Below are positions 1 to 15,266 of a DNA stretch of 64,000 nt, piece by piece. Made by a program: the position numbers and the translations under genes. The stretch spans positions 62,001 through 126,000 of the forward strand of contig VXQZ01000014.1 in NCBI GenBank assembly GCA_009838735.1, written 5' to 3'. Under the pieces are notes generated by a model. It saw only the letters and a list, made by a program, of their open reading frames with translations, did not search any database and was not told the origin of the DNA. The DNA comes from Chloroflexota bacterium. GTDB taxonomy: Bacteria; Chloroflexota; Dehalococcoidia; Bin125. Position 1 is the first letter of the stretch, and each line of letters begins with the position of its first letter.

Positions 1-1199
1 CTGTCGCGCCGGTCCGATTTTCGTAGACCGAACGCTGCGATCGCCTCCTCATCCTTCCCGTTTCCAGCCAAGACCCTGCGATACAACTCGGAATCCAGCA
101 TCCGCAAGACGAGCAGGACAACCACGGTCTCCAGGTAGAGAAAGTGGTCTTCCCGAACCGATGCAAGTAGCAGGCTCAACCTATTGAGCGTCTGCTGCAG
201 GTCGCGCAGGCTGAGAGGCGAAGCATCGAGCACATTGACAACGAACCTCAGCGATGCGGGATCGTCGATCCGACTGTAGATCCGACCATTGGAAGCCAGG
301 AGCTGCAGTTGCTCTGCGATTTGCAAGTCTTTGCCGATCGCATTCAGGAAGGCAGATCTACTGGGCTCTGGCAGTCGAAGGTCGATGTCGAAGAACCGAC
401 GCAGATAGCCATCGGAGTTGAAGTCTGATCCATAGATCGCCCTGACGGAGTGGCCAAGTTGGAGTCGGTCCAAGCAGAGGACAAAGACGATGTGATCGAC
501 GCTCAAGAAGTGCTTGGCGGTCTCGAGCAGTTCAATCGCATAGTTGGGCCGACAGCGGTCAAGTTCGTCAACGAGTATGACCAGAGGACGGCCGCCATTG
601 GCGTCGGCAAGCGACCGAGCCGACCCCCCCAAGGTGGTCCGGAACTCGTCAATCAGGTCCTTGGCTTGCCGGTATGAAGCCTCAGCGAACGGAGTCTGCT
701 CCACTTCTTCAGCCGCGCTTTCTGAGCCATTGTCGATGTCCCGCAGAAACTCGGAGCCGGCAGCAACTGCGCTGGCAAGTTCAGGTTGTCCCACTGCGGA
801 CAACGCGGTCCCTGCTACGAGGCTGCCTCTTCGCAGGACCTGGATAAGACTGCGCGCGCGATCGTCAAGGACTGGGGAATAGTCGCCGTCGGATGGCCAG
901 CCTAGCTGCATCATCAGCTCGGACCACAGCGCAAAGAACGGATCCCACGTGAAGTCCGTTTGCCAGGCATTGAATTCGACGACCAAGAACTGCTCATTGC
1001 GGAGGTGCTGGGCCCACATTCGTAGGAACGTCGTTTTGCCCATACCCCAGCCTGCGTCGACCGCCATCACGCACGGGCCCTCAATCTGGCCGACGACGCC
1101 GGTCAGGCCGACGATGGAGTCCTTCCGCTCTAGTCTGTCGTTGGCGAATGGATCATCCGGTGGCACTACGACCTCGGCGGCCTGGGCACGAAGAGACAT
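1..1199 (-). CDS. KAP-family P-loop NTPase, C-terminus beyond window
   Basis: The frame is open from an ATG at 1199 to the left edge, giving about 399 residues without a stop. It has the KAP NTPase layout: a Walker A of the form GWGMGKTT near residues 49-56, an FNAW motif shortly after, a Walker B VDELDRCRP near residues 203-215, and the downstream FVLCLDR and YLRRFFDIDL blocks. KAP NTPases are STAND-like ATPases, often with membrane segments inserted in the NTPase domain; some are linked to plasmid or phage exclusion (PifA type). No membrane insert is obvious in the visible part. The start is chosen because AGGAGG lies 9 nt upstream; another in-frame ATG at 1208 abuts that site and is too close. 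It lies downstream of, and in the same direction as, three uncharacterised genes (1408-3188), so it may be the last gene of that group. The role in defence is inference from context. Confidence 0.9.
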   Translation of the reverse strand, partial: MSLRAQAAEVVVPPDDPFANDRLERKDSIVGLTGVVGQIEGPCVMAVDAGWGMGKTTFLRMWAQHLRNEQFLVVEFNAWQTDFTWDPFFALWSELMMQLGWPSDGDYSPVLDDRARSLIQVLRRGSLVAGTALSAVGQPELASAVAAGSEFLRDIDNGSESAAEEVEQTPFAEASYRQAKDLIDEFRTTLGGSARSLADANGGRPLVILVDELDRCRPNYAIELLETAKHFLSVDHIVFVLCLDRLQLGHSVRAIYGSDFNSDGYLRRFFDIDLRLPEPSRSAFLNAIGKDLQIAEQLQLLASNGRIYSRIDDPASLRFVVNVLDASPLSLRDLQQTLNRLSLLLASVREDHFLYLETVVVLLVLRMLDSELYRRVLAGNGKDEEAIAAFGLRKSDRRD

Positions 1200-1407
1200 C
1201 TGGCACATCCTCCTGACCGTGCGAGCCTATCGGGCGGCTGACAGAGGCGCCGCTCGTCGACAAAGCGGCAGGCGAATACACCAGTGGAGTTCCCCGCACG
1301 TCCCGATCGTGGGGCAGTGATCCGAGCGGTACGCCTTCCTTCAGCCCGTGTCGTGACTGTCAGCAGACCCAAAGGGGCTGCGTTCCGAGCATCAACAGGG
1401 GTCAAGG

Positions 1408-1848
1408 TCATAAGGTGGGGATAGGCCCATTCTCCAAGTAGCTGTCAGCCTCAAGCCACGAAGAGTTGTCGGCGAGGAGCTGAGCGTGCCCCTTTTGGCA
1501 CTCACGCTCGTCTGCGCAGTTTTGTTCGACAATCATGTCTGCGTGGAAGGGATTGCCATCGACAGAGGACTTGACAAAGTCCCGGCCGTATCCTTCCACT
1601 TCGCCGGCCTCAACAACGACCCAACCCAACAACTCAACCTCATTGACATGCTGAGATCTTGTCCTGGCTATCTCGACCATTTCTGAGCGCTCGGCGGCGC
1701 TCACGCGGTCAAAGGAGGTTTTGCGCTCTCCACGCCTCTCAAGGAAGTCGTTGAGATATCCGCGGCGATTTCTTCGTGCGCGTCTCATCCCCGTGTTCGA
1801 CGAGGGCGCACGACCAAGCCACTCGTGCCCGTCAATGCCATCAAGCAT
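1408..1848 (-). CDS. Hypothetical protein, 146 aa (third of a three-gene group)
   Basis: An open frame of 146 codons beginning with ATG 11 nt after the stop of the upstream gene. The N-terminal 45 residues are rich in Arg; the rest is mixed alpha/beta with a GWVVVEAGEV strand and an NPFHADM motif near residue 100. A Pro/Tyr/Phe-HAD motif of this kind occurs in short uncharacterised proteins that travel with mobile islands, but I cannot name the family. The ribosome site is weak (CCGGAA), consistent with translational coupling to the gene before it. It could be a small accessory subunit of the group. The same-strand order and tight spacing support a real gene rather than a chance frame. Confidence 0.6.
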   Translation of the reverse strand: MLDGIDGHEWLGRAPSSNTGMRRARRNRRGYLNDFLERRGERKTSFDRVSAAERSEMVEIARTRSQHVNEVELLGWVVVEAGEVEGYGRDFVKSSVDGNPFHADMIVEQNCADERECQKGHAQLLADNSSWLEADSYLENGPIPTL

Positions 1849-1859
1849 TTCCGGATGAG

Positions 1860-2339
1860 CTATTCGGATTTCTCAGGGAGAGAACCCAAACTCCGTCGAA
1901 GAAAATCATCGGGAAGATTCGAGGCATTCCGATATCGCTTCGTTCTTTGGCGTCCCTCGATGTTCACCAAGCAGAGCGCCGTGGCATCCGAAGCGCAGAG
2001 CACTAAGACGGAACTGCCCGCTCCCTTCGCGAAGTCCAAACAGACTTCCCCATCTTCTGTCGGGTAAACCTCTGCCCTATATCTCCAGCCTTGTCCGAGC
2101 CTCGTGAGAACTCGATAAGCGTGGTCGAATGCGAGTTCAGTTGGGACCCTGTAGTTCTCTTGCTTGGCTTCCTCAATCACATCAGCTCGGATCTTGTGAA
2201 ACTTGAAGCCCCCTTTGTTCAGATATGCCAATGACATCCACTGGAGGTCTACGCCGTGATCGGGAAGGGAGATCGTCCGCCGTCGCTCGCCCTCCATGGA
2301 GAGCAGTTCCTCCGCCTTTGCCAGCGATTCGATTGCCAT
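1860..2339 (-). CDS. Hypothetical protein, 159 aa (second of a three-gene group)
   Basis: Starts at an ATG with GGAAGG about 10 nt upstream, 15 nt after the preceding gene's stop, and ends 11 nt before the next gene. The N-terminal 20 residues look helical (alternating Leu/Ala/Glu). The centre carries a YPTEDGEVCLDF strand followed by two hydrophobic strands (SSVLVLCA and TALCLVNI), as in small beta-rich proteins that often sit beside other uncharacterised island genes. No catalytic motif, signal peptide or membrane segment is visible. Function unknown; it probably works with its two neighbours since the three are close-packed on one strand. Confidence 0.7.
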   Translation of the reverse strand: MAIESLAKAEELLSMEGERRRTISLPDHGVDLQWMSLAYLNKGGFKFHKIRADVIEEAKQENYRVPTELAFDHAYRVLTRLGQGWRYRAEVYPTEDGEVCLDFAKGAGSSVLVLCASDATALCLVNIEGRQRTKRYRNASNLPDDFLRRSLGSLPEKSE

Positions 2340-2354
2340 TTGGCCGCAGCCTTC

Positions 2355-3188
2355 CTACCCAGCCAGCCTCGAGAGAATCTGTTGAACATCGCCAGTTACT
2401 GCCGCGCCTTCTGTCAACAGTCCCTCCGTAGCAGGTAGCTGGTCGCGAAAAGTGGCGAAGACCTCAACGGTTGTGTCGGGCGGAGGGGTTTCCGAGTAGT
2501 CAATGTCGATGTCAATCGAGTAAAAGCTCCCCGGTAGGGCATCCGAGACGAAGTCGATAGACAAGTCGGTCACCTGCCATCGAGGCTCGCGACTTCCGCC
2601 AAGGACTTGGTCAACGGCCGGAACATTGAACAGCTTGCCTACTCCCTCGGAAGGCCAAGTCTCCTTGAGCTTGCATTCGACTGACCACATGCGCGATCGA
2701 ACGACGAGGGACTTGCGTCGAAACACCTCCAGAAGCCCGAAGACAAGGTCCACGAACTCTGTTCGGGCTGGCCAGGCGCCGGAAGAGTCTCGCACCTCGA
2801 CCGAGCGAGACCCAACGTAGATAGCCAGATTGTCCTTCGCGAGCTCAAATCTGCCGATTTCGTGCCCGTCGTCGTCTCGGCGCCATCCACTGGGGAGTGC
2901 CTGACTCACGGCAGTTGCCACTTCGTCGAAGCTGGAGAGGTCACTTCCACCGTGGAAAAGCATGAGACCGAAGTCCGCGATCTCGGCACCGCGTGTCAAG
3001 AACTCCCGCCTCTCTTGGTCTGCCAGATGTTTCGGACACGCGAGCAGAAGGCCTACCTCAAGGCAGGCGTTCTCTTGTTGCCCGAAAGGTCTGTGGTTCG
3101 GTGGTCAGGAAGACTTTTGGTTGGAGAACGCCATTGGGAGACACATGGCCTCGAGACAACTCTCGTCTCGGAGAATGAAGAGTTCCAT
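2355..3188 (-). pseudogene. Hypothetical gene interrupted by an in-frame TGA (first of a three-gene group)
   Basis: The best start is an ATG at 3188 preceded by GAGGAA. The frame runs 27 codons to a TGA at 3105-3107 and continues open, in the same frame, to 2355 (277 sense codons if the TGA is skipped). The stretch just after the TGA reads as ordinary protein (RPFGQQENACLEVG, then LLACPKHLADQERREFL) but has no ATG or GTG, so the gene appears to be one unit broken by a stop. A TTG at 2999 with GGGAG six nt upstream could re-initiate a 214-residue protein. Beta-rich C-terminal half with an acidic SIDIDIDY strand; no known motif recognised. A single TGG-to-TGA change would explain the break. The family is unknown to me. 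Confidence 0.6.
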
Positions 3189-3885
3189 GTTGCGCTTCCT
3201 CGCCCTCTCGTCTCGTGTCGATCGTCACTGTATCAAGTTCAGGCGAGATTATCCGGCATCCTGTTCCTCGGTGTCAACTCGCCCTCTTCGCGGCAGCGCA
3301 TCGCCGGGTCCACCCCGACCCAGATTATGTAGGTGGTCCCACACTGTCGCGGTTCCTTCAGTTCCCGGTCCTCGGCTCGCTCCCGGCCATGCCTGCTTCA
3401 ACGGCTGCCATGCACTCTGGCACAGACCTATCGCGCCAATTCTGGCATCTCACGCTTTAGGCCACGTCCGGTTCCGATTGGCCACGGCCCTGCAAGCAGC
3501 AGTCACCGTCCTAGGAGCGGTTGAGTTCAGCCTGGAGCTCTCAACGCCGTTCAGGCGAACCTTGTACCCGGCGTGCGCCGCCTCGCGAGTGCGCTACGTT
3601 CTCAATCGTCCTGGTAGCCGCTCTTTGGGCCTTGAGCTTGTCGGCGTAGATTTCGGTCCTAATGCACGCGCTCAATCTGACGGGGCAAATCACGTGTACC
3701 GTCGTAGCGGCTGGGAACGACTCCGAGAATACGCGACCTTTCTCCTACTCATTTGGCCCGCCACCTGGACGTTGCCTCTGGCGCTACCGCCAGCACGAAA
3801 ACTGGCCCTTACGTGCCTCGAGTTCTCCTTGTCGTCGATGTAGCTCGCTTCCACTTCGTCCGTGCCAAGCACTTTCCCGGTGTGA
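3189..3885. other. Gene-poor stretch between the hypothetical group and the truncated nuclease
   Basis: About 700 bases with no frame I can support on either strand. Several frames are open for 60-90 codons, but their translations are rich in Arg, Ser and Pro in the way out-of-frame readings of GC-rich DNA are, and none has a convincing ribosome site plus a recognisable motif. The right end abuts the broken 5' end of the DUF1016-type gene, so part of this stretch may be foreign DNA joined by the event that cut that gene. Confidence 0.4.
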
Positions 3886-4908
3886 CCGATCGAGCTGATC
3901 GGACAGCGCATCGTCGATTATGAGCAGTCCGGTCAGGATCGAGCCGCCTATGGCGACGCGCTAATCGGGCGGCTCGCGCACGACCTGACGACCCGCTTCG
4001 AACGGGGCTTCTACCGCCAGGTTCTGCAGCACATGCGCCAATTCCATTTGACCTACCCGTCCAGTCGGATTCGCCAGTCGGTGTCTGGCGAATCGCCCCC
4101 GGCCGCAAGCGTCGCCGAGTTGCAGGACGCATTCCCGCTGCCGTGGTCCGCCTACGTGCGGCTCTTGTCTGTAACGAACCAGCAGGCGCGGGAGTTCTAC
4201 GAAACTGAGGCTTTGCGCGGCGGCTGGAGCGTGCGTCAGCTCAACCGCCAAATTTCATCTCAGTTCTACGAGCGCACGGCCCTCTCGAAGGACAAGGCCG
4301 CGATGTTGCAGAAGGGACAGCAGGCGCTGCCCGAAGACACCATGCAGCCTGAAGAGGCGATCAAAGATCCGTTCGTATTGGAGTTCCTCGACCTCAAGGA
4401 CGAGTACTCCGAGAGCGAACTGGAAGAGGCCCTGGCTCAACACCTCCAAGCCTTTCTCCTGGAGCTCGGCGACGATTTCTGCTTTGTCGGGAAGCAAAGA
4501 CGACTGCGGGTCGGGGACCAGTGGTTCCGGGTGGACCTGCTGTTCTTCCATCGAAGCCTGCGCTGCCTCGTCGTGATCGACCTCAAGATCGGGAGTTTCT
4601 CGCATGCCGATGCCGGGCAGATGCACTTCTACTTGAACTACGCGCGCGAGCACTGGACGCGCGAGGGTGAAAATCCGCCGGTTGGGCTCATCTTGTGCTC
4701 CGAGAAGGATGAGACAGTCGTTCGCTACGCCCTTGACGGGCTGCCGAACAAGGTCATGGCAGCCGAGTACCAACTGACCTTGCCCGATGCAGACACGCTT
4801 GCAGCAGAACTCGAGCGCACCCGAGAGGTGATTGAACTCCGAGCCGCGTTCAGTTCCGGCCCTCCGACCTTGCGCGCCGCCTTGAGCGTCGACAACCCAG
4901 ATCAGTGA
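3886..4908 (+). pseudogene. DUF1016/YhcG-type PD-(D/E)XK nuclease, 5'-truncated
   Basis: Both halves of a YhcG-like protein are visible: the DUF1016 N-terminal helical domain (IVDYEQSGQDRAAYG, then LAHDLTTRFERGF and a region ending FHLTYPS) and the C-terminal PD-(D/E)XK fold (FRVDLLFFHR, VVIDLKIG, PVGLILCSEKDE). YhcG-type proteins are frequently found in defence islands and next to restriction loci. Homology starts directly after a TGA at 3883-3885, and there is no ATG, GTG or TTG before the ATG at 4033, which lies well inside the conserved domain. The usual 30-40 N-terminal residues are absent and no other upstream frame supplies them. Either the gene is a remnant or it is translated from 4033 (291 aa) or from a rare CTG at 3895. 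It converges on the helicase gene. Confidence 0.8.
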
Positions 4909-5083
4909 CCTGGCGTTGAAGTAGAATCCGTATTCGTGCCGCAGGCGAACATTGACGCTTGGGCTATGCGAGCACCAGGATTCTCGTTACAGCATCCATA
5001 AGTTGCTGCGTTTGAGGTCCACTCCCTACACGACCCAAGCCGGAGCGAGCACTGGGTTTCCCCGTCCCTTGCCCAAGGGCTCG

Positions 5084-8000
5084 CTACCCTGCTGGGAGAA
5101 CGACCTGGTAGCAGACCACGCCGATGTCGTCGGGCTGGATCGGTGTCGGGGGCGAGGGCGGGGAGACAGCGGTTAGCCGCAGCTCCTCGATCAACTTCAC
5201 GATTCGCGATGCACACTCGCCCACGCTCATGCCACCTTCCGAGTACTCGCGACGCAGCGCCGACAATGCTCGCCTCACCCGGGCGGTTTGCGGCATTGCG
5301 AGAACATCAGCAGCTTGGTTGTACTCCTCGCCGACCGGGGCATCAGGAGCGCCGAGAATGTCCCTCAGTGCCCAACGTTGACTGCGCTGAAGGTTCGGAC
5401 TCGGCGGCGGCTCGTTGTGAAGCTCACAGATGTCTGCCGCGGCGACAGCGAATAGCCCCTCCAGATCGAGGTCTTCGGGGGCCGGCGCGGGTCGCTGCCC
5501 GTCTGGATCAATGAGCTGCAACATCGGCAAATCGTCGCGGAGCAGAATCTCGCCTGACGCGGAGACCGTCCGCCAGTAGCGGCGATCCTCCCGCGTTCTG
5601 CACGCGAAGAAGACGGCTGGCTCCTCGAGCCTCGAATCGGACCTTGCGATCCCCGCACCAATTCCCCAGGGCATTCGATTGAGCCGTTCAACCTCGCCTT
5701 CCTGGACGGCGCGCCGGTAGATCGCACGGTAGTGCTCGCCAGCAAAGGCTGCTCCTGCTGCGCCCTGATCTTCATCAAGCAGAGTCGCATCCCCACGCGC
5801 GAGCCTGTCCGCAAACTCCCTTATTTCCTCATAAGCCCCCGCATAGACTCGCTGGATACTTACCTCCCCTTCGAGCACTGGATTCTCCATGCCCATCGAA
5901 GCGTTCGCCGCCCTGATCTTCGCTCGTAGTCGAGCCTCTAAACCGAGCAGTTCGTCCAACTCGTCGTCCTGTGGCATCAGGGTGTAGAGGAACACCATGT
6001 CGTGCGGGCTGCGCAATCTGATGACGCGGCCGTTTCGCTGGACCACTCGCTGCGGATTCCAAGGCATGTCGTATGACAGCACCGCCTGCGCCTGTTGCAA
6101 GTTCTGTCCCTCCGAGAGGACATCAGTGCTCAGCAGTACATCGATCTCTCCGCCATGCTGGTCAGCGTCGAATACACCTTCGGCCAAATCAGGACAGAAT
6201 CGGTTGATCGCACGCTGCCGTTCGGCTTCGCTCGCCTCAGCGCCAACGACCGCCGCCCACTTGCGATCACCCAGCAAGCCGGGGTCACTCTCGATTGCCC
6301 GCTGCAGATATTCGGCCGTGTCCCGGAACGAGGTGAAGATGGCCACTTTCTGAGCGGTCGTCGAAGCCATGACTTCTCGCAACTGCTCTAGCTTCGGGTC
6401 CGGCCAATCTTCTAACTGCTCAATCTGCTCCGCAATCTCTCCGAGGATTTCCGCGTCCTTCTTCAGGTCCACCAGCAGCTCGGGGCGAAACCCGTCAGGA
6501 TCGGACCAATCTCCTGGTTCCTCGAGTAGCTCATCGGTGAGTCCTTCGATCTCGGACAAATCCTCGTCGTCAATCTCTACATCGGCATCTGTGGTCTGGC
6601 TGAGATAGTTGGCGCGCGCCAGCGCGTTCCTTCTCATTCTGCGGACCGTCTGCAGTGCCGAGTACCACGACGACTCGAAACGCTTGAGCAAGAGCGACTG
6701 CATCAACCCCGCCAGCGCTTCTTGTCGAGCCGCGTCCGGGCTCGGTTCGTAACGGTAGGAACCGGGACGATATTGAGCCATTGACAAGGCATCCGGCGGC
6801 CTTGGCTGTTCGTCCGGCTGTGGGCCTATCCGTCTGCCGATCGTACGAGCCAAGCCTCGATACGCATCGTTCAGCGAGTAGCGGCGCTCTCTGAGCTCAG
6901 GTTCGGGAAACCGCACCTCAGTGCCGTCCGTAAACCGTTCGCCGCCGTAGTGCTCCTTGATGAACGCGCGATCGCGCCGAACAGTGAGGGCATCGAGCAG
7001 CGGGAACAGCCTCGCAGGCGACGGTCCGCCTGCCGCATCCTTGTCATCTGCGCCGGCCTCGCGGAAGAACTCCTGGAGGCTCGGGATGTTGAGCGGTTCC
7101 CACGAGAAAGCGGCGTCATGCCTGCCGAAGAGCAGGAACAGGCTGTGCAAATCCCAGAGCGTGTTGTTCACGGGTGTCGCTGTGAGCATCGCCAACTGCT
7201 TGTCGCGCCCGCCCATCAGCTTGGAGAGCGATGCATACCAGGACGTATCGCTGTTGCGATAGGCGTGCGCCTCGTCGACCACCACGAGCTTGTATGCGTC
7301 GATTGGCAGCCGTAGGACCGGTTCCGTGCCGCCCAGTTGGGCATCCTGCGCAAGCTGCTGGTATGAGACGACTCGCGCCGCGAGGTTGGCCGACTCGAGT
7401 CGTGGCTCCCACATGCTGTCTCGGAGTTGGGCCGAAGCCACTACGAGCACGTGATGCCCGTGCTCCTCGACGTGCTCGCGAATGAAGTCGACCGCAATCT
7501 CCGTCTTGCCCATTCCGACGCCGTCCGCGTAGAGCACGCCGCCGTAGCGCTCCATGATCGCCCGCGCCCTCGCGGCGCCGTCGCGCTGGAACGCGGTCAA
7601 CTCGTCGGCGTAGGACTCCGGCTCGGGCTCGTCGCCGTAGAGCTCGATCAAGGCTCGCAGGAAGACATCCCCCGGCGTCGCGTCGAGCGGCGGGGGTTGG
7701 AGCAGTTCCAGCAGTCCGTCTCGGAAGTCGTCCGCCTGATCCCAGAGCCTCCGATGCCAGCCAAGCGTCATAGCCACGACGTTGGGTTGGTAGTGGACCA
7801 TTCCGAGCTCGAGATTGCTGGCCAGGCCGCCGTAGGTCAGATTGGCTGAACTCACCAGCACCGCGCCTGGACCGGTCAGGCCGCCGTCGTCGTTGAGCGT
7901 GCCCAAGGCGTATGCCTTGCCGTGCAGGAATCGCCGCGTGTAGCGGCGCACTTCAGCTTGCTCGGAGGCGACGAAGGCGCTGACCCGTTCAAGCACGACT

Positions 8001-8320
8001 CGTCGAGAAGCGGGAAATCCGGAAAAATCACGCTCTCGGCGCAGCGCGTTGACCGACTGTCTGAAGCGATCGCGGACGGCGCTCAGGGAGGGAGTTCCCG
8101 ACAATGCGCCTTCGGCTGGAGCCGCGCCGATCAGGAGGTTGACCGCCTTCTGTTGAGTGTCCGCCGCCTTGACCAGCGCATCTAGGCCGTCCAGGCCGAC
8201 GTAGGCTGTGGCCACGCTGAGCGGTCCGTCATACTGCGCCGCCAGCCAGAGCAGCGCCTCGCCGTGCCGGCCGTATTCGTCGTTGTCGATGACCTCGTAG
8301 ATGCCCGGCCCGGTGGTCAA
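5084..8320 (-). CDS. PLD-nuclease/SNF2 helicase fusion of a DNA-modification defence module
   Basis: A 1078-residue protein. An N-terminal phospholipase-D-like domain carries an HGK motif near residue 132, followed by SSANLTYGG, the usual continuation in PLD nucleases. A superfamily 2 SNF2 ATPase follows: Walker A GVGMGKTE near residue 267, DEAH (VVVDEAHAY) near residue 347, LTATPVNN as motif III, and a C-terminal helicase lobe with VLSEGQNLQ and QRNGRVIRL (motifs V and VI). It starts with TTG overlapping the methyltransferase stop (TTGA), so the two are translationally coupled. Helicases of this class accompany large adenine methyltransferases in DISARM class 1 (DrmD with DrmMI) and in other helicase-methylase systems. 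The fused PLD domain could be the nuclease. No DrmA, DrmB or DrmC homologue is seen here. Domain calls are confident; the named system is not. Confidence 0.92.
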   Translation of the reverse strand: MTTGPGIYEVIDNDEYGRHGEALLWLAAQYDGPLSVATAYVGLDGLDALVKAADTQQKAVNLLIGAAPAEGALSGTPSLSAVRDRFRQSVNALRRERDFSGFPASRRVVLERVSAFVASEQAEVRRYTRRFLHGKAYALGTLNDDGGLTGPGAVLVSSANLTYGGLASNLELGMVHYQPNVVAMTLGWHRRLWDQADDFRDGLLELLQPPPLDATPGDVFLRALIELYGDEPEPESYADELTAFQRDGAARARAIMERYGGVLYADGVGMGKTEIAVDFIREHVEEHGHHVLVVASAQLRDSMWEPRLESANLAARVVSYQQLAQDAQLGGTEPVLRLPIDAYKLVVVDEAHAYRNSDTSWYASLSKLMGGRDKQLAMLTATPVNNTLWDLHSLFLLFGRHDAAFSWEPLNIPSLQEFFREAGADDKDAAGGPSPARLFPLLDALTVRRDRAFIKEHYGGERFTDGTEVRFPEPELRERRYSLNDAYRGLARTIGRRIGPQPDEQPRPPDALSMAQYRPGSYRYEPSPDAARQEALAGLMQSLLLKRFESSWYSALQTVRRMRRNALARANYLSQTTDADVEIDDEDLSEIEGLTDELLEEPGDWSDPDGFRPELLVDLKKDAEILGEIAEQIEQLEDWPDPKLEQLREVMASTTAQKVAIFTSFRDTAEYLQRAIESDPGLLGDRKWAAVVGAEASEAERQRAINRFCPDLAEGVFDADQHGGEIDVLLSTDVLSEGQNLQQAQAVLSYDMPWNPQRVVQRNGRVIRLRSPHDMVFLYTLMPQDDELDELLGLEARLRAKIRAANASMGMENPVLEGEVSIQRVYAGAYEEIREFADRLARGDATLLDEDQGAAGAAFAGEHYRAIYRRAVQEGEVERLNRMPWGIGAGIARSDSRLEEPAVFFACRTREDRRYWRTVSASGEILLRDDLPMLQLIDPDGQRPAPAPEDLDLEGLFAVAAADICELHNEPPPSPNLQRSQRWALRDILGAPDAPVGEEYNQAADVLAMPQTARVRRALSALRREYSEGGMSVGECASRIVKLIEELRLTAVSPPSPPTPIQPDDIGVVCYQVVLPAG

Positions 8321-11300
8321 GAGAGCGCCTCGAACTTGGCGACGACCACTTCGCGGTAGTGCTCGGGCACGGCGTCGAGTGTGAAGTCAGTGAAGATGAA
8401 GCGCAGTTCGTCGACATCGAGTCCGTAACCCTGCGCGACGAGCGCGTCAATCTCGGCCCGCATGTCGTCGCGGTCTGAGTCACTCAGTGGGCCATAATCC
8501 ACACCCGCCTCGGCGGCGAAGTCGGCGAATCGATCATCAACGCAGGAGAGCCGCGCGGCAAGGTGTCCGATGCGCTGCCAATCGGTGTATTCCTGTTTGG
8601 GGAAATGAAGCATGTTGACGATGAAGAACACCACGTTTGTCTCAACGTACCTTCTCGCGATCCAGTCGAATGGCAAGCTGTTCATTATGCCTATGTGGGC
8701 TGCAGCGCGACTAGGTCGCCACAGAACGCTGTTAACGTAGTACGGGGTTGCATGAGTCAATGGCGTGCGCGGCGGCACCAAACACGCAATGATGGTCCGC
8801 GAGTTTGTTCGCGACGCAACTGCCCGATAGGCGATGCGTGCCTTTTGAATGGGATGCGCATTGGGGGTGTTGAGCATCTCCGCCGGAAACACGTCACGGA
8901 ACGCCCTGCTGCCTTGCGCTCGGCTGTGGACGAATTTGAGCAAAGCCTTCCAGTCGGCATATCCGGCAGGATCGCGGCCATGGGGGTCGTACTGATCGAA
9001 GGAGCGCCCCTTCCAGACGGGAACCCTGCCTGATCCTGGAGGGTTTGAGTACAGCTTCTTGTGATTGGTTTCATTCATATCGCCTTGAAGCGGCACGGGG
9101 CTCGTTGCCTCTGCAGTTTCTACTGCTACGGGGTATTGAAGCCCATCGAATCTGACTCCTTGCTGGAGCTTGGCGAGGATATCGACGTGGTGCTGTGTGG
9201 CGACCAACGGTACCTCGTAACTCGGTTCGGGCACGCCACTATCGCCGATCAAGGTGGTGCTGTCGGCAAGTTGGCGCATCGAGATATCAACCGGCTCACC
9301 GTCGGCCGCTTCAAGGAAATCCGAAAGGCTGCGCGACGGGCCGGAGACGCTGACCGAGCCCTCGACCGGCACACCAACTTCCGCGGTCAGCAGAGCGACC
9401 GTGTAACGCGGCTCCATATCGAACGCCCAACGCCCGTCGTTTAGCAACTGATCGACTCGCGTCGGACGCGACGTCATGAACAACCACTGGCGGAACCCAC
9501 GGCTACCGTCATTGAGGAATGCGACGCGCGGCAGCACAACGCCAATCTGTCCACGTGGGCGCGTCAACGATGCGTAGCGCTCGCAGAAGAGCTTGTACAG
9601 GTCTGTATGCCCTGATCCCTGCATGGAATAGCCGTTAGCAGGCTTGAAAAAGCTCCTTTGCAAGTCATCACGCTCTCGTTCATTCGCGACTTGTTCTTGA
9701 AGCTGGGGATAGCTCGCGAAGAGTTGCTCAATTCGTGCGTCGCGGTCTTTGATATTGCGTATACCCCGTACGCCGGGATCGTGCAGTGCTACAAACTTGG
9801 GGAGCTCGAACATCACCTTCTTCCACGGAGGATTGCCGACGACCACGTCGAAACCCGGCCGGTCCCGATGGAAGATGCTGGGAAACTCCAGCGGCCAATG
9901 GAAAAACCTGTGATCGTCCGCGTAACCGCGCGAGCCGTCGACCAGGCCCTGTTCTCGAGCTTTGAGTGCCTTCTCCTCCAACACCAAGATCGGGTCGACC
10001 ATCCGTGCCTTCTCCAGGCCCAGTGGCTCGGCCGCCCACAAGTCGAAGACCGTGCGCAGACAGGAGGTAATCTCCGAGAGCTCGGCCGCGACCTCCCGCG
10101 AGCGCCGCACGTCGTCGGGCGTCTGGTCGAGAATGCTCGCCAGCTCATGGTGCTTGGCCGCCGCCGCGTCCATCGCCTCGCGCACCGGGTCGCTGAACAT
10201 GAAGCCCTGGCTCGCGTCGTCATCGCGCTCGACGACTGACGCGTCGGCGACGCCGATCAACGAGTTGCCGCACTTGAGGTTGCCGTCCAGCCAGGACAAA
10301 GCCAGACCCGGCACGAATGACGCCAGCCACAGCGTGATGTTCGCGACCTCCACCGCCATGGGCGAGATGTCAACGCCGTAAATGCAGCGCTTGAGGATCA
10401 GGCGGCGCATCAGGTCGCCATCCTCCGGCGGCCGAACGCCGGGCAGATCGTCGCGGCGCAGTTCTTCGAGTTGCACCTTGATTCCCGGGAACCCATCGAC
10501 CTCAGCCAGGAATCTGGCGTACCGATCAGCCATGACATCAAGCGCGACAGTGAGGAAGTGAGCGCTGCCCATCGCCGGGTCAAGCACGGAGAAGTCGAAC
10601 AGCATCCGCGCGGCTGCGTCGGGATCGCGCTTCAGTGTGCCGCGCACTGCTTCCAAGTGATCGTCAAGCGCCGGCTCCAGGGAGTGCTTGAGCAGGTGTC
10701 GGACAAACTCGTGCCGCGTGTAGAAGACGCCTCCCGCCTTGCGGTCGCCTTTCTCTGACTGGTAGAACAGGTCGCGTCGGGTGACTTCCGACTCCTCTCC
10801 AACTCTGGCCGGGCGAAACACCTTGCGCTTCTTGTCGTAGATCAGGTCTTCGGGCGCGCTCGACAGCTTCATGGAAAGCAGCGCTTCATAGATCGCGCCC
10901 AGGTGGCCAACCTGCAGACCCGCGTAGTCGAGTCCCGGAGCGTCAGCGCGATCGGTGTCATAGGCGATGGCGTCCAGCGCCGGCGCCAGCTTCGCGTTCG
11001 TGACTGAGGCCTGTTCGAGCAACTCGCTGCCGGGGAAACCGTCCGCTGCGAACAACTGCCCGTTGTAGGCCGGAACGCCGGCATCGGCGTCGCCGGTGCG
11101 GATCATGCCGACCAGCGTGCGCAGGTCATCCCAGACGCGAGTAGAAGTGTTGTCGGCTGGTCCCGAGGCCACCGTCTCATGGCACTCCCGCGCCAGGCTG
11201 ATCGCGCTCCTCCGGCTGTAGACCGGCGAGTTGACGGGCAGAAAGCCGCGAGCCTCGACGTGCAGCAGGAACATGAACCGGAATACCAGGGTCAGCGCCG

Positions 11301-12330
11301 CCTCGCTGATGCGTTCCAGTTGCTCTGGCTCGGCGGGGTCGACGCCTTCGGACTCGAGGAACTCGCCAAGCCCCTGCGCGATGGAAGGCAGAGCATCGCG
11401 AATCAGGCGATCCTCAAGTCCCTTGCGCAGCTCCACGCCGAAGTCGCGCGCCTTCCGCGCCCACTCCTCTAGCCAGCCTTCACTTTGAAGCGATTGCGGC
11501 GAGAGCAGGCCGAGGCAGTAGCGGCTGTCACGCGTCAGATCTCTCGCGTCGATCTCCAGGTACTGACCGCCAGCCGCACCCGACTCGGGTCGTCGCTGGA
11601 ACAGGCGGTATCGCCCGCCCGCTGCTAGCAAGCCCCAGTCGGCGCCGTACCGCTCGCAATCGTCGAGCAGCACGCCTTCCGGCAGCTTGCCGTCTCTGGT
11701 GAGCTGTCCAAACGACTCTGGATCACTCGAGGGATGGACGATCGCGATCGGCACCTCTGTGTCGTCGCGCAACAGGTAGCCGCGCCGCTGCTGCTCCGGC
11801 GAGTAGCCAAGCTTGCGGAACAGCGTCCGCCATTCGCGCGAATCGGCAGGAGTGATGTCGGCGATCGCCTCTTCCAGCTTCGGTTTGCTGGCTCGGAGTC
11901 GCTCCCGGACGAAGTGTGGCGTCAGCAGTTCCTTCACCCTGAGTCCTGGAATCGCGGCCTCTTCGAGCCGGATGAACTCGCGCGCCAGCGTCTGGCCGGC
12001 CTCATTGAAGTGCCTCCCAGCGGACTCCCGTAGTAGGTTCAGCACCGGCTCAAACGGAAGCTCGCGAATCGGCCGGTCATGGTGCGGACCGCAGACGCGG
12101 ACCTTCGAGCCGCCGGACGAGGGCGACAACAGGACCAGTGGTTTGCCCGTCTGACCCTTCTGCTTGTTCCACGCGCGGCGCAGCGCTGTATCCGTGCCAG
12201 CCTCCCGCCAGAGCAAGTCAAACCCGGTGGTAGACCAGGTCAATACTCCGGCGTCGTCGGCCGATGTCCGAGGCGTGCCCTCGCCGAGCTCAGAGGTCAG
12301 GCGATCCAAGAGCGATTGAGAGGTTGTCAC
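8317..12330 (-). CDS. Large N6-adenine DNA methyltransferase (PglX/DrmMI/type IIG-like)
   Basis: A 1337-residue protein with the gamma-class N6-adenine methyltransferase motifs: motif I DPAMGSAHF near residue 585 (SAM binding), the MAVEVANITLWL helix with KCGNSLIG, and the catalytic motif IV NPPW near residue 834 preceded by FDVVVG. The length, long N-terminal helical region and C-terminal target-recognition-like half match COG1002-type enzymes (PglX of BREX, DrmMI of DISARM, type IIG enzymes). No PD-(D/E)XK motif is evident in the N-terminal part, so it may methylate only. It starts at a GTG with AGGAGA about 10 nt upstream. It overlaps the helicase gene by 4 nt, so the two form one operon. 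Likely role: self-marking of host DNA, with the helicase/PLD partner attacking unmarked DNA (inference). Confidence 0.93.
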   Translation of the reverse strand: MTTSQSLLDRLTSELGEGTPRTSADDAGVLTWSTTGFDLLWREAGTDTALRRAWNKQKGQTGKPLVLLSPSSGGSKVRVCGPHHDRPIRELPFEPVLNLLRESAGRHFNEAGQTLAREFIRLEEAAIPGLRVKELLTPHFVRERLRASKPKLEEAIADITPADSREWRTLFRKLGYSPEQQRRGYLLRDDTEVPIAIVHPSSDPESFGQLTRDGKLPEGVLLDDCERYGADWGLLAAGGRYRLFQRRPESGAAGGQYLEIDARDLTRDSRYCLGLLSPQSLQSEGWLEEWARKARDFGVELRKGLEDRLIRDALPSIAQGLGEFLESEGVDPAEPEQLERISEAALTLVFRFMFLLHVEARGFLPVNSPVYSRRSAISLARECHETVASGPADNTSTRVWDDLRTLVGMIRTGDADAGVPAYNGQLFAADGFPGSELLEQASVTNAKLAPALDAIAYDTDRADAPGLDYAGLQVGHLGAIYEALLSMKLSSAPEDLIYDKKRKVFRPARVGEESEVTRRDLFYQSEKGDRKAGGVFYTRHEFVRHLLKHSLEPALDDHLEAVRGTLKRDPDAAARMLFDFSVLDPAMGSAHFLTVALDVMADRYARFLAEVDGFPGIKVQLEELRRDDLPGVRPPEDGDLMRRLILKRCIYGVDISPMAVEVANITLWLASFVPGLALSWLDGNLKCGNSLIGVADASVVERDDDASQGFMFSDPVREAMDAAAAKHHELASILDQTPDDVRRSREVAAELSEITSCLRTVFDLWAAEPLGLEKARMVDPILVLEEKALKAREQGLVDGSRGYADDHRFFHWPLEFPSIFHRDRPGFDVVVGNPPWKKVMFELPKFVALHDPGVRGIRNIKDRDARIEQLFASYPQLQEQVANERERDDLQRSFFKPANGYSMQGSGHTDLYKLFCERYASLTRPRGQIGVVLPRVAFLNDGSRGFRQWLFMTSRPTRVDQLLNDGRWAFDMEPRYTVALLTAEVGVPVEGSVSVSGPSRSLSDFLEAADGEPVDISMRQLADSTTLIGDSGVPEPSYEVPLVATQHHVDILAKLQQGVRFDGLQYPVAVETAEATSPVPLQGDMNETNHKKLYSNPPGSGRVPVWKGRSFDQYDPHGRDPAGYADWKALLKFVHSRAQGSRAFRDVFPAEMLNTPNAHPIQKARIAYRAVASRTNSRTIIACLVPPRTPLTHATPYYVNSVLWRPSRAAAHIGIMNSLPFDWIARRYVETNVVFFIVNMLHFPKQEYTDWQRIGHLAARLSCVDDRFADFAAEAGVDYGPLSDSDRDDMRAEIDALVAQGYGLDVDELRFIFTDFTLDAVPEHYREVVVAKFEALS

Positions 12331-13339: not shown

Positions 13340-13544
13340 CGGTCGTCGAGGTCAACGTCCGGGCGCTGGACCGCTCACGAGTGGTTGTCAACTCTTGCAG
13401 GAGATGTCTCGTATGCGCCATATGATGCGCCTCACTCTCGCTAAGATGTTTCGAACATATATCTGGGCCAGCACGAGAAGAATCTCGTAGCCACACCTCG
13501 AAGTCGAGCGGACGAACACGACAAAGAGATTGAGGGGACCATCA

Positions 13545-15266
13545 ATGGAAACCAGCACTGTTCGAACCCCGGTCGCGCTCTATGCGCGAGTCTCCAGCGA
13601 GCGGCAGGATGTCGATCTCTCCGTCGCTGCACAGCTTCGCGCCCTGCGCGACTTCGCAGACCGGCACGGCTACGTCGTCGCCCGCGAGTACATCGACGAA
13701 GCCGAGAGCGGTCGAGTGGCCGACCGGCCGCAATTCCGGAAGATGCTAGACGAGGCCTCCGAAGCCAACGCGCCCTTCCAAGAAATCTTGGTGTGGAAGT
13801 TCTCGCGCTTCACCCGCAAGCGCGAGCACGCGGTCGCCTTCAAGTCGATGCTGAGGCGGCGAGGCATCCGAGTCACTTCCATCACCGAGCACGCAGACGA
13901 CTCTCCCACGGGGAGGTTGATGGAGGCGATCATCGAGAGCGTGGACGAGTTCTACTCGGAGAACCTCGCCCAGGAGGTCCGCCGCGGGATGCGCGAGGCC
14001 GCTTCCCGGGGGTTCTTCATGGCGCCGGTCGCGCCCTTCGGATACCGGCGCGTGAAGGTCCAGGACGGCGCCAAGGAGAGACCCAAACTGGAAATCGACG
14101 GAGCCGCCGCTCCGGTCGTGAAGGAGATCTTCGACAAAGCACTCCGAGGTCACGGCCTTAAGGACATTTGCCGCGACCTGAACGAACGCGGGATCACCAA
14201 CAGAGGCAGGCGCTGGCAGCGGGCGAGCCTTCACAAGCTCCTGGTCAACGAGGCGTACACCGGAACGGCAGTCTGGGGAAAGACCAATAGGGGAAAGAAG
14301 GCATCCGACCCAGTACGTGTCGAGGGAGCGTGGCCCGGCATCGTCTCGCGCGAACTGTTTGACGCCGTCGGTCAGGCAATGCGTGAGCGGGCCCCCGCGA
14401 TGCGACCGCCGGCGCGCGTGGGCAGCAAGTTCCTCTTGAGCGGATTGCTGCGCTGCGGAGCTTGCGGCAGTCCCTTCAGCATTCAGAGTGCGAGAAGCAG
14501 CAAGTTCGCCTACTACGTCTGCAGCAAGCTGATGCGCGAGGGCGCCGGCGCGTGCGAGTCGCGCTATCTCAACGCGCCCAGGGTCGAAGGCCTCGTGGTC
14601 GACAAGATCAAGGAGCGCATCCTCACCGACGAGACGATCACGGAGCTCGTGACCCTCGTCGCCGAAGAGGTCGATCAGGTGGCCGGTGAGTTGGGCGGCA
14701 AGCTCGAGGCGATCGAAGGCGAACTGGCGGACGTGCGAAAGCGGCTGTCCCGGCTCTACGAGGCGCTGGAGACCAGCGACCTGACAATGGAAGTGCTGTC
14801 GCCGCGCATCTACTCGATACGCCACCGTGAGGAACAGCTCATGGCCGCGCAAGAAGACCTGAGCCGCCAGCTTGAGAAGCGGCGCGTCGATCTGCCGAGC
14901 ACCGAGGAAATCAAGGCCTACGTAGCGGACTTCCGGGAGTTCCTCCAGCAGGGAACTTTCCCGGAGCGCAAGGCATTGATTCGCAACTTCGTCGAGGGAA
15001 TCGAGGTAGTCGGCGATCAGGCCACGCTGACCTACACGATTCCCATGCCGTCGGACGGCGCGACGAAGGAAGAAACGTCCGTTCTCTATTTCGCCAACTC
15101 TGGCCTACCAAACGGCACCATACTGCGAACTCCTTCGGACTGTTCAACTCTGGCGGCGCCTGCGCTGGTCAGGGGTGGTTCCCTGGTGGCGGGGACGAGT
15201 GGGACGCACCAGCGCTTGGCCGACCGCGACTCGCTTCGACTCAGACCGGCTGGAATGACAGTCTGA
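13545..15266 (+). CDS. Large serine recombinase / integrase of the island
   Basis: A 573-residue protein starting at an ATG with AGGGGA about 6 nt upstream. An N-terminal resolvase domain has the YARVS motif with catalytic Ser17 and downstream arginines (KFSRFTRKREHA). A Recombinase domain follows (GFFMAPVAPFGYRR to INRGRRW-like residues), then a zinc ribbon (LRCGACG with YYVCSKLMREGAGAC) and a coiled coil near residues 380-450. These enzymes insert and excise islands, prophages and transposon-like elements at short att sites. It is the last gene of the accessory region, facing plsY, so it probably marks the right edge. The last 50 or so residues (after TIPMPSDG) are not typical of the family and may be read from the DNA flanking the integration site. 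A short dyad-like segment lies upstream around 13445-13460. Confidence 0.93.
   Translation: METSTVRTPVALYARVSSERQDVDLSVAAQLRALRDFADRHGYVVAREYIDEAESGRVADRPQFRKMLDEASEANAPFQEILVWKFSRFTRKREHAVAFKSMLRRRGIRVTSITEHADDSPTGRLMEAIIESVDEFYSENLAQEVRRGMREAASRGFFMAPVAPFGYRRVKVQDGAKERPKLEIDGAAAPVVKEIFDKALRGHGLKDICRDLNERGITNRGRRWQRASLHKLLVNEAYTGTAVWGKTNRGKKASDPVRVEGAWPGIVSRELFDAVGQAMRERAPAMRPPARVGSKFLLSGLLRCGACGSPFSIQSARSSKFAYYVCSKLMREGAGACESRYLNAPRVEGLVVDKIKERILTDETITELVTLVAEEVDQVAGELGGKLEAIEGELADVRKRLSRLYEALETSDLTMEVLSPRIYSIRHREEQLMAAQEDLSRQLEKRRVDLPSTEEIKAYVADFREFLQQGTFPERKALIRNFVEGIEVVGDQATLTYTIPMPSDGATKEETSVLYFANSGLPNGTILRTPSDCSTLAAPALVRGGSLVAGTSGTHQRLADRDSLRLRPAGMTV

Follow-up and report, generated by a model that had tools for sequence, protein, structure and literature searches.

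A stand-alone adenine methyltransferase and PLD-SNF2 helicase gene pair from a Chloroflexota bacterium, probably a two-component restriction-modification-like module

The DNA analysed here (the window) is a stretch of 64,000 nucleotides on contig C14 (VXQZ01000014.1) in the 3.15 Mb, 96.6%-complete assembly of a Chloroflexota bacterium. It carries two adjoining genes, one for an N6-adenine DNA methyltransferase (MTase) and one for a SNF2 helicase with an N-terminal PLD (HKD) nuclease domain. Judged from its sequence, the pair is probably a self-sufficient two-component ATP-dependent restriction-modification (RM)-like defence module, which is proposed to destroy unmarked foreign DNA. Both genes are intact, the active-site residues of all three activities are conserved, the two genes are tightly co-inherited and occur as a stand-alone pair, and a nuclease motif was not found in the MTase. 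Helicase-methylase defence pairs are already known as a kind; what is new, provisionally, is the stand-alone HKD-SNF2 form.

Architecture of the two proteins

A sequence-only reading of the window had described a 1337-residue MTase and a 1078-residue helicase overlapping by 4 bases, and both open reading frames are indeed intact and share a TTGA stop/start (Table 1). The MTase starts with GTG and has an AGGAG ribosome-binding site, and the TTG start codon of the helicase has GAGG just before it. The overlap is a predicted translational coupling of the two genes; a 4-base overlap is shared by at least eight further loci. In relatives, the junction repeatedly holds small genes for a Uma2 nuclease, HNH, PIN or HEPN/nucleotidyltransferase proteins (L035 5669-6256, L034, L036, L002; L047 5251-5703; L061/L062), as if this site attracted insertions of accessory nuclease and toxin-antitoxin genes.

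Table 1. Coordinates in the window of the pair, its motifs and two neighbouring genes
Feature	Position	Strand	Basis
N6-adenine DNA MTase, Eco57I/BrxX/Type IIL-like, 1337 aa; predicted recognition and modification subunit	8317..12330	-	Open reading frame, Pfam, fold model
MTase alpha/beta region, residues 160-262, at the position of the Type IIG/IIL nuclease	11545..11853	-	Fold assigned by secondary-structure inspection
MTase motif I, DPAMGSAHF; S-adenosylmethionine binding	10555..10581	-	Motif inspection
MTase motif IV, NPPW; catalysis	9823..9834	-	N833, P834, P835 invariant in alignment A5
TTGA overlap, 4 bases; MTase stop TGA, helicase start TTG	8317..8320	-	Sequence
PLD(HKD)-SNF2 helicase, 1078 aa; predicted translocase-nuclease effector	5084..8320	-	Open reading frame, Pfam, NCBIfam, residue conservation
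N-terminal PLD nuclease domain, residues ~30-200	7721..8233	-	PLDc_2 match at residues 46-193
PLD active-site stretch, H133xK135 ... S158xN160 ... E171	7808..7924	-	Conservation across homologues
Walker A, DGVGMGKT	7502..7525	-	G269, G271, K272 in 119/119 homologues
DEAH box	7265..7276	-	D349, E350, H352 in 119/119 homologues
Helicase motif VI, QRNGRVIR	6017..6040	-	Q761, R762, G764, R765 in 119/119 homologues
YhcG/DUF1016 PD-(D/E)XK nuclease, N-terminally truncated, convergent neighbour; island context, outside module	4033..4908	+	PADLOC (PDC-S02), Pfam
Large serine recombinase, CcrB-like; probable mobility gene of island	13530..15266	+	Pfam, NCBIfam

The MTase matches Pfam Eco57I (E = 1e-18), and its motifs X, I and IV are all intact. 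Since a sequence search of the PDB gave no match, its fold was predicted. The AlphaFold model of residues 1-950 is confident, having a predicted local distance difference test score (pLDDT) of 87.6 and a predicted template modelling score (pTM) of 0.89, and the nearest structures found by Foldseek are those of BREX BrxX/PglX and of the Type II enzymes DrdV, BsaXI and BpuSI. The stretches of lowest conservation include residues 851-900, 1001-1100 and 1201-1250, which is compatible with a target-recognition region there.

Is the MTase then a complete, self-cutting Type IIG enzyme, and the PLD-helicase merely an unrelated neighbour? Its best PADLOC model is REase_MTase_IIG (PDLC03620, 365 bits), on which its plasmid homologues score up to 858 bits, and together with the Foldseek matches to DrdV, BsaXI and BpuSI this supports the Type IIG/IIL class. 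However, when 19 related MTases of the clade were compared, no conserved D...(D/E)xK was found up to residue 345. For this reason, residues 160-262 are read as a degenerate nuclease, the PADLOC label looks wrong, and the PLD domain on the helicase is the sole recognisable nuclease of the pair. The self-cutting enzyme was rejected on the same absence, and with a helicase partner that is almost constant and co-inherited, the reading as a whole is very unlikely.

The sequence-only reading had also placed a PLD domain at the N terminus of the helicase. Besides Helicase_C and SNF2-rel_dom, Pfam gives a sub-threshold PLDc_2 match (E = 6e-5), whose 23.3 bits fall short of the cut-off of 27, yet the active-site residues are kept nearly throughout: among the 116 homologues aligned there, H133 is found in 114, K135, S158 and N160 each in 113, and E171 in 115. 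The near invariance of these five residues makes the assignment firm, and the fusion stands as described. Fold searches with the helicase model matched chiefly SWI2/SNF2 and Hef-type helicases and did not resolve the PLD domain as a separate unit.

Recurrence and co-inheritance

Homologues of the helicase were gathered without reference to the MTase from a phylum set, 84,980 species genomes and plasmids. Sixty-seven of them have flanks of 4.5 kb or more on each side; a same-strand MTase lies within 3 kb in 59 of these and within 7 kb in 62, counts that are approximate because a few loci are duplicated between collections (e.g. L036 and L099). Trees were built on trimmed alignments, and a mirror-tree comparison of helicase and MTase over 79 pairs gave r = 0.61, the shuffled maximum being 0.09. 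The pairing is conserved across phyla and is therefore not due to chance.

Two gene orders occur, with either the MTase first, as in the clade of the window, or the helicase first. The window clade comprises Chloroflexota, Acidimicrobiia and other Actinomycetota, Longimicrobiales, Thermoanaerobaculia, Pseudomonadales and haloarchaea, and a Nitrososphaera pair falls just outside it; the relatives that bear names are Chloroflexota/Dehalococcoidia. The best plasmid matches of both proteins are on six plasmids, of Euzebya, Rhodococcus, Paenarthrobacter, Mycobacterium gallinarum, Halorubrum and Halalkalicoccus. These carry exactly the MTase and the helicase side by side, with the 4-base overlap in four, and the MTase is annotated there as a hypothetical protein. 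Among these hosts and plasmids are Rhodococcus erythropolis R138 with pCRE138, Paenarthrobacter aurescens TC1 with pTC1 and Halorubrum lacusprofundi with pHLAC01. In the phage records searched, a full-length homologue was not found.

The description of the system as minimal, made from the sequence alone, suits the window and the six plasmids; it does not suit the many relatives that insert or append Uma2, HNH, toxin-antitoxin or McrB-like genes. In a Chloroflexota sub-lineage (L041 4974-17043, L042, L045, L040), two genes are added after the helicase, encoding an Mrr_N plus AAA_5 (McrB-like) ATPase and a protein of ~780 residues without Pfam match, a possible four-gene variant. On the Euzebya plasmid (L191 15294-16142), the next gene after the pair is annotated as a phosphorothioated-DNA-binding restriction endonuclease and overlaps the helicase gene by 4 bases.

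Five fully flanked helicases have no MTase in their locus, and three of them (L168, L177 and L178, all complete homologues) have also lost HxK. As HxK and MTase are both gone in these three, the nuclease appears to be linked to the MTase; they are our strongest hint that the PLD domain may be an effector matched to the MTase.

The pair might instead be a sensor-effector of phage replication intermediates or of foreign modification, Type IV/SauUSI-like or Druantia-like, with methylation only modulating its action. PLD-helicase fusions without an MTase do act as modification-dependent restriction enzymes, as in SauUSI (cited in PMC12839542), and this counts for such a sensor. But the helicase almost always has an MTase partner, with intact catalytic motifs, and Pfam recognised no dedicated modification-reader domain in either protein. 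We regard a sensor as very unlikely.

Mode of action and genomic setting

We propose that the MTase would recognise a short, probably non-palindromic sequence and methylate an adenine therein on host DNA. Where the site is unmethylated, on invading DNA, the bound MTase would recruit or license the helicase, which, driven by ATP, would translocate along double-stranded DNA, and the PLD domains would cut on the meeting or dimerisation of two such motors. As a rule, an active PLD nuclease is built from two HKD motifs; since the helicase has one, dimerisation or a head-on meeting would be the natural trigger. The overall action would be like that of Type III (Mod/Res) or Type I systems, with an HKD nuclease replacing PD-(D/E)XK. 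It is the defence function, the recognition site, the formation of a complex and the collision-triggered cleavage that we infer here.

Several observations weigh against this reading. Motif I of the MTase reads GSAHF, a form common to its close relatives, where GSGHF is usual. The predicted structure of the helicase is of moderate quality only (pLDDT 66, pTM 0.34). Moreover, the DnmA-YeeB-YeeC locus of B. subtilis methylates GACGAG and restricts neither DNA uptake by transformation nor the three phages examined (PMC7261158, PMC9973331), hence loci of this type can be inactive relics. In favour of the reading, the DnmA and YeeB homologues of V. crassostreae are reported to protect against some phages (PMC9973331). 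The haloarchaeal methylome papers contained no data on the homologue.

The B. subtilis result also favours a reading in which the MTase alone matters, as a functional orphan and a relic of gene-regulatory methylation like DnmA, with the helicase being lost. However, the helicase of the window is intact, the motifs of its PLD and helicase domains are maintained across phyla, and the two genes co-evolve in the mirror-tree comparison; carriage on plasmids likewise argues for a portable trait. An orphan MTase is thus unlikely, and we retain the two-component RM-like module.

The surroundings of the pair look like a mobile defence island. Its neighbours in the window are the truncated YhcG nuclease, an RHH-PIN toxin-antitoxin pair, the serine recombinase and a KAP NTPase (PDC-S20). 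The YhcG/DUF1016 gene lacks ~80 N-terminal residues of the copy in the sister genome G406, its frame being open to ~3895 (window 3895-4908). Upstream of the window, in the same island (L049, G000:C14:43000-62000, 665-9428), are a TPR-GreAB-C-PIN conflict protein and a 1543-residue AAA/STAND-like ATPase (PDC-M54A) with a weak Avs2 match, as well as two Replic_Relax proteins. Around the loci of near relatives, the defence genes include CRISPR-Cas, GmrSD, Uma2 and HerA. An empty insertion site was sought in sister genomes; there was no conserved context, and the surroundings of plsY differ in G388 and G407.

In G406 (L094, G406:C22, 6470-13876), the YhcG gene is 78% identical to the window copy. 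It adjoins a mere 221-residue C-terminal helicase remnant, followed by a 439-residue gene and a 1193-residue DUF499 gene. Apparently, one defence module was replaced there by another, with the island position unchanged.

Relation to known systems

The sequence-only reading had suggested a stand-alone system, for which the main danger was that profile searches would expose a decayed part of a larger, known one. They did not. In the 96.6%-complete genome there is no match to DUF499 (PF04465), to DUF1998/MZB (PF09369), the marker of DrmB and YprA/ArmC, or to PglZ (PF08665), and the DrmA profile gave only weak cross-matches, 50 bits from the pair's own helicase and 25 bits elsewhere. With these marker components lacking from the rest of the assembly, the pair does not belong to a DISARM, BREX-Related/Hma, ARMADA or BREX system, nor is it plausible that such components complement it from elsewhere, and it recurs alone in other genomes. 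A decayed DISARM, BREX, ARMADA or DUF499 system was rejected as a candidate on this genome-wide lack of markers.

Decay from such a system would be consistent with the kinship of the component families, as DrmMI, DrmD, HmaA and BrxHII are all among the PADLOC matches of the pair, and with the helicase remnant near a DUF499 gene in G406. Against it, full-length DUF499 was not found near any homologue locus examined, where only two weak fragments of 46-47 bits occurred, one of them at a gene annotated as DUF3320. Genes next to DUF499 in Chloroflexota, within the 5-10 kb covered, did not match the models of the pair's MTase and helicase, except for one 14-bit match and the G406 remnant, and stand-alone pairs are intact in many phyla. 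Decay is thus largely refuted and has very little probability left.

In the openly accessible literature, no description of a stand-alone DUF499-free pair was found (subscription papers and REBASE were outside the scope), and the term undescribed is provisional. Current tools would list its two members separately, the MTase as a lone 'Type IIG' or hypothetical gene and the helicase as a stray. Tentatively, and with more reserve than for the module itself, it might represent a pan-prokaryotic, plasmid-borne class of two-gene ATP-dependent restriction, in which a Type IIG/BrxX-like MTase lost its own nuclease and cutting was outsourced to a PLD-SNF2 motor; it could be the minimal core to which other lineages added DUF499, DISARM-like or McrB-like parts. 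If so, it would be the simplest defence unit of helicase, methylase and PLD nuclease, of a size that allows interspecies transfer and complete testing. It would also offer a clean model of the way in which a PLD-armed DNA translocase is licensed by methylation status, a point still obscure for DISARM, BREX-Related and ARMADA, and would correct a likely annotation error across bacteria and archaea, where MTases of this family are filed as self-cutting Type IIG or hypothetical proteins.

With DISARM class 1 (DrmD-DrmMI-DrmA-DrmB-DrmC), the pair shares an SNF2 helicase, an adenine MTase and a PLD nuclease in one locus, but it has no DrmA, DrmB or separate DrmC. The resemblance to DrmMI-DrmD noted at first sight from the sequence is real but distant: the helicase scores 115 bits on the NCBIfam DrmD model, whose curated cut-off is 610, and DrmMI (214 bits) is second to REase_MTase_IIG for the MTase.

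That reading was silent on two further relations. HKD-SNF2 helicases with N6-MTases have already been published inside the DUF499-centred Type-2 BREX-Related systems (PMC12839542), part of which are called Hma. Both have an N6-MTase, a Swi2/Snf2 helicase with an HKD-endoDNase fused to its N terminus and a proposed RM-like action, and the combination of N6-MTase and HKD-Snf2 helicase that marks BREX-Related systems is found in the pair; however, these systems require the DUF499 ATPase, which is absent from its genome. DUF3780 is present in 98% of them (PMC12839542); no gene lies between the MTase and helicase of the window, and no genome search was aimed at DUF3780. The second relation is DnmA-YeeB-YeeC of B. 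subtilis and V. crassostreae, where an MmeI-like MTase without nuclease motif is followed by a helicase and Type I-like RM has been suggested. YeeB is described without PLD, and the locus has YeeC (T5orf172) as its third gene, whereas the pair has a fused PLD domain and no third gene. The B. subtilis locus is a close functional analogue of the pair.

In ARMADA, a BrxHII-like helicase and a YeeA-like MTase are joined with a YprA helicase (PMC12458937). The adjoining BrxHII/RapA-like helicase and PglX/YeeA-like MTase resemble the pair, but ARMADA is defined by the YprA/DUF1998-family helicase ArmC, a domain absent from the pair's genome. The best reading of these sequence comparisons is that the pair is probably related to DISARM, BREX-Related (Hma) and ARMADA systems without being a member of any.

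Type III RM (Mod/Res), Type ISP and NgoAVII/CglI systems all combine a modification or recognition unit with an ATP-dependent superfamily 2 (SF2) translocase-nuclease, and NgoAVII/CglI use a PLD nuclease. The pair has the Type III-like arrangement, with SF2 ATPase and nuclease in one chain and the MTase in the other, but its MTase class and nuclease arrangement differ, and it does not belong to these systems at the sequence level. The pair is a real, widespread two-gene module, best filed among the helicase-methylase restriction-like systems.

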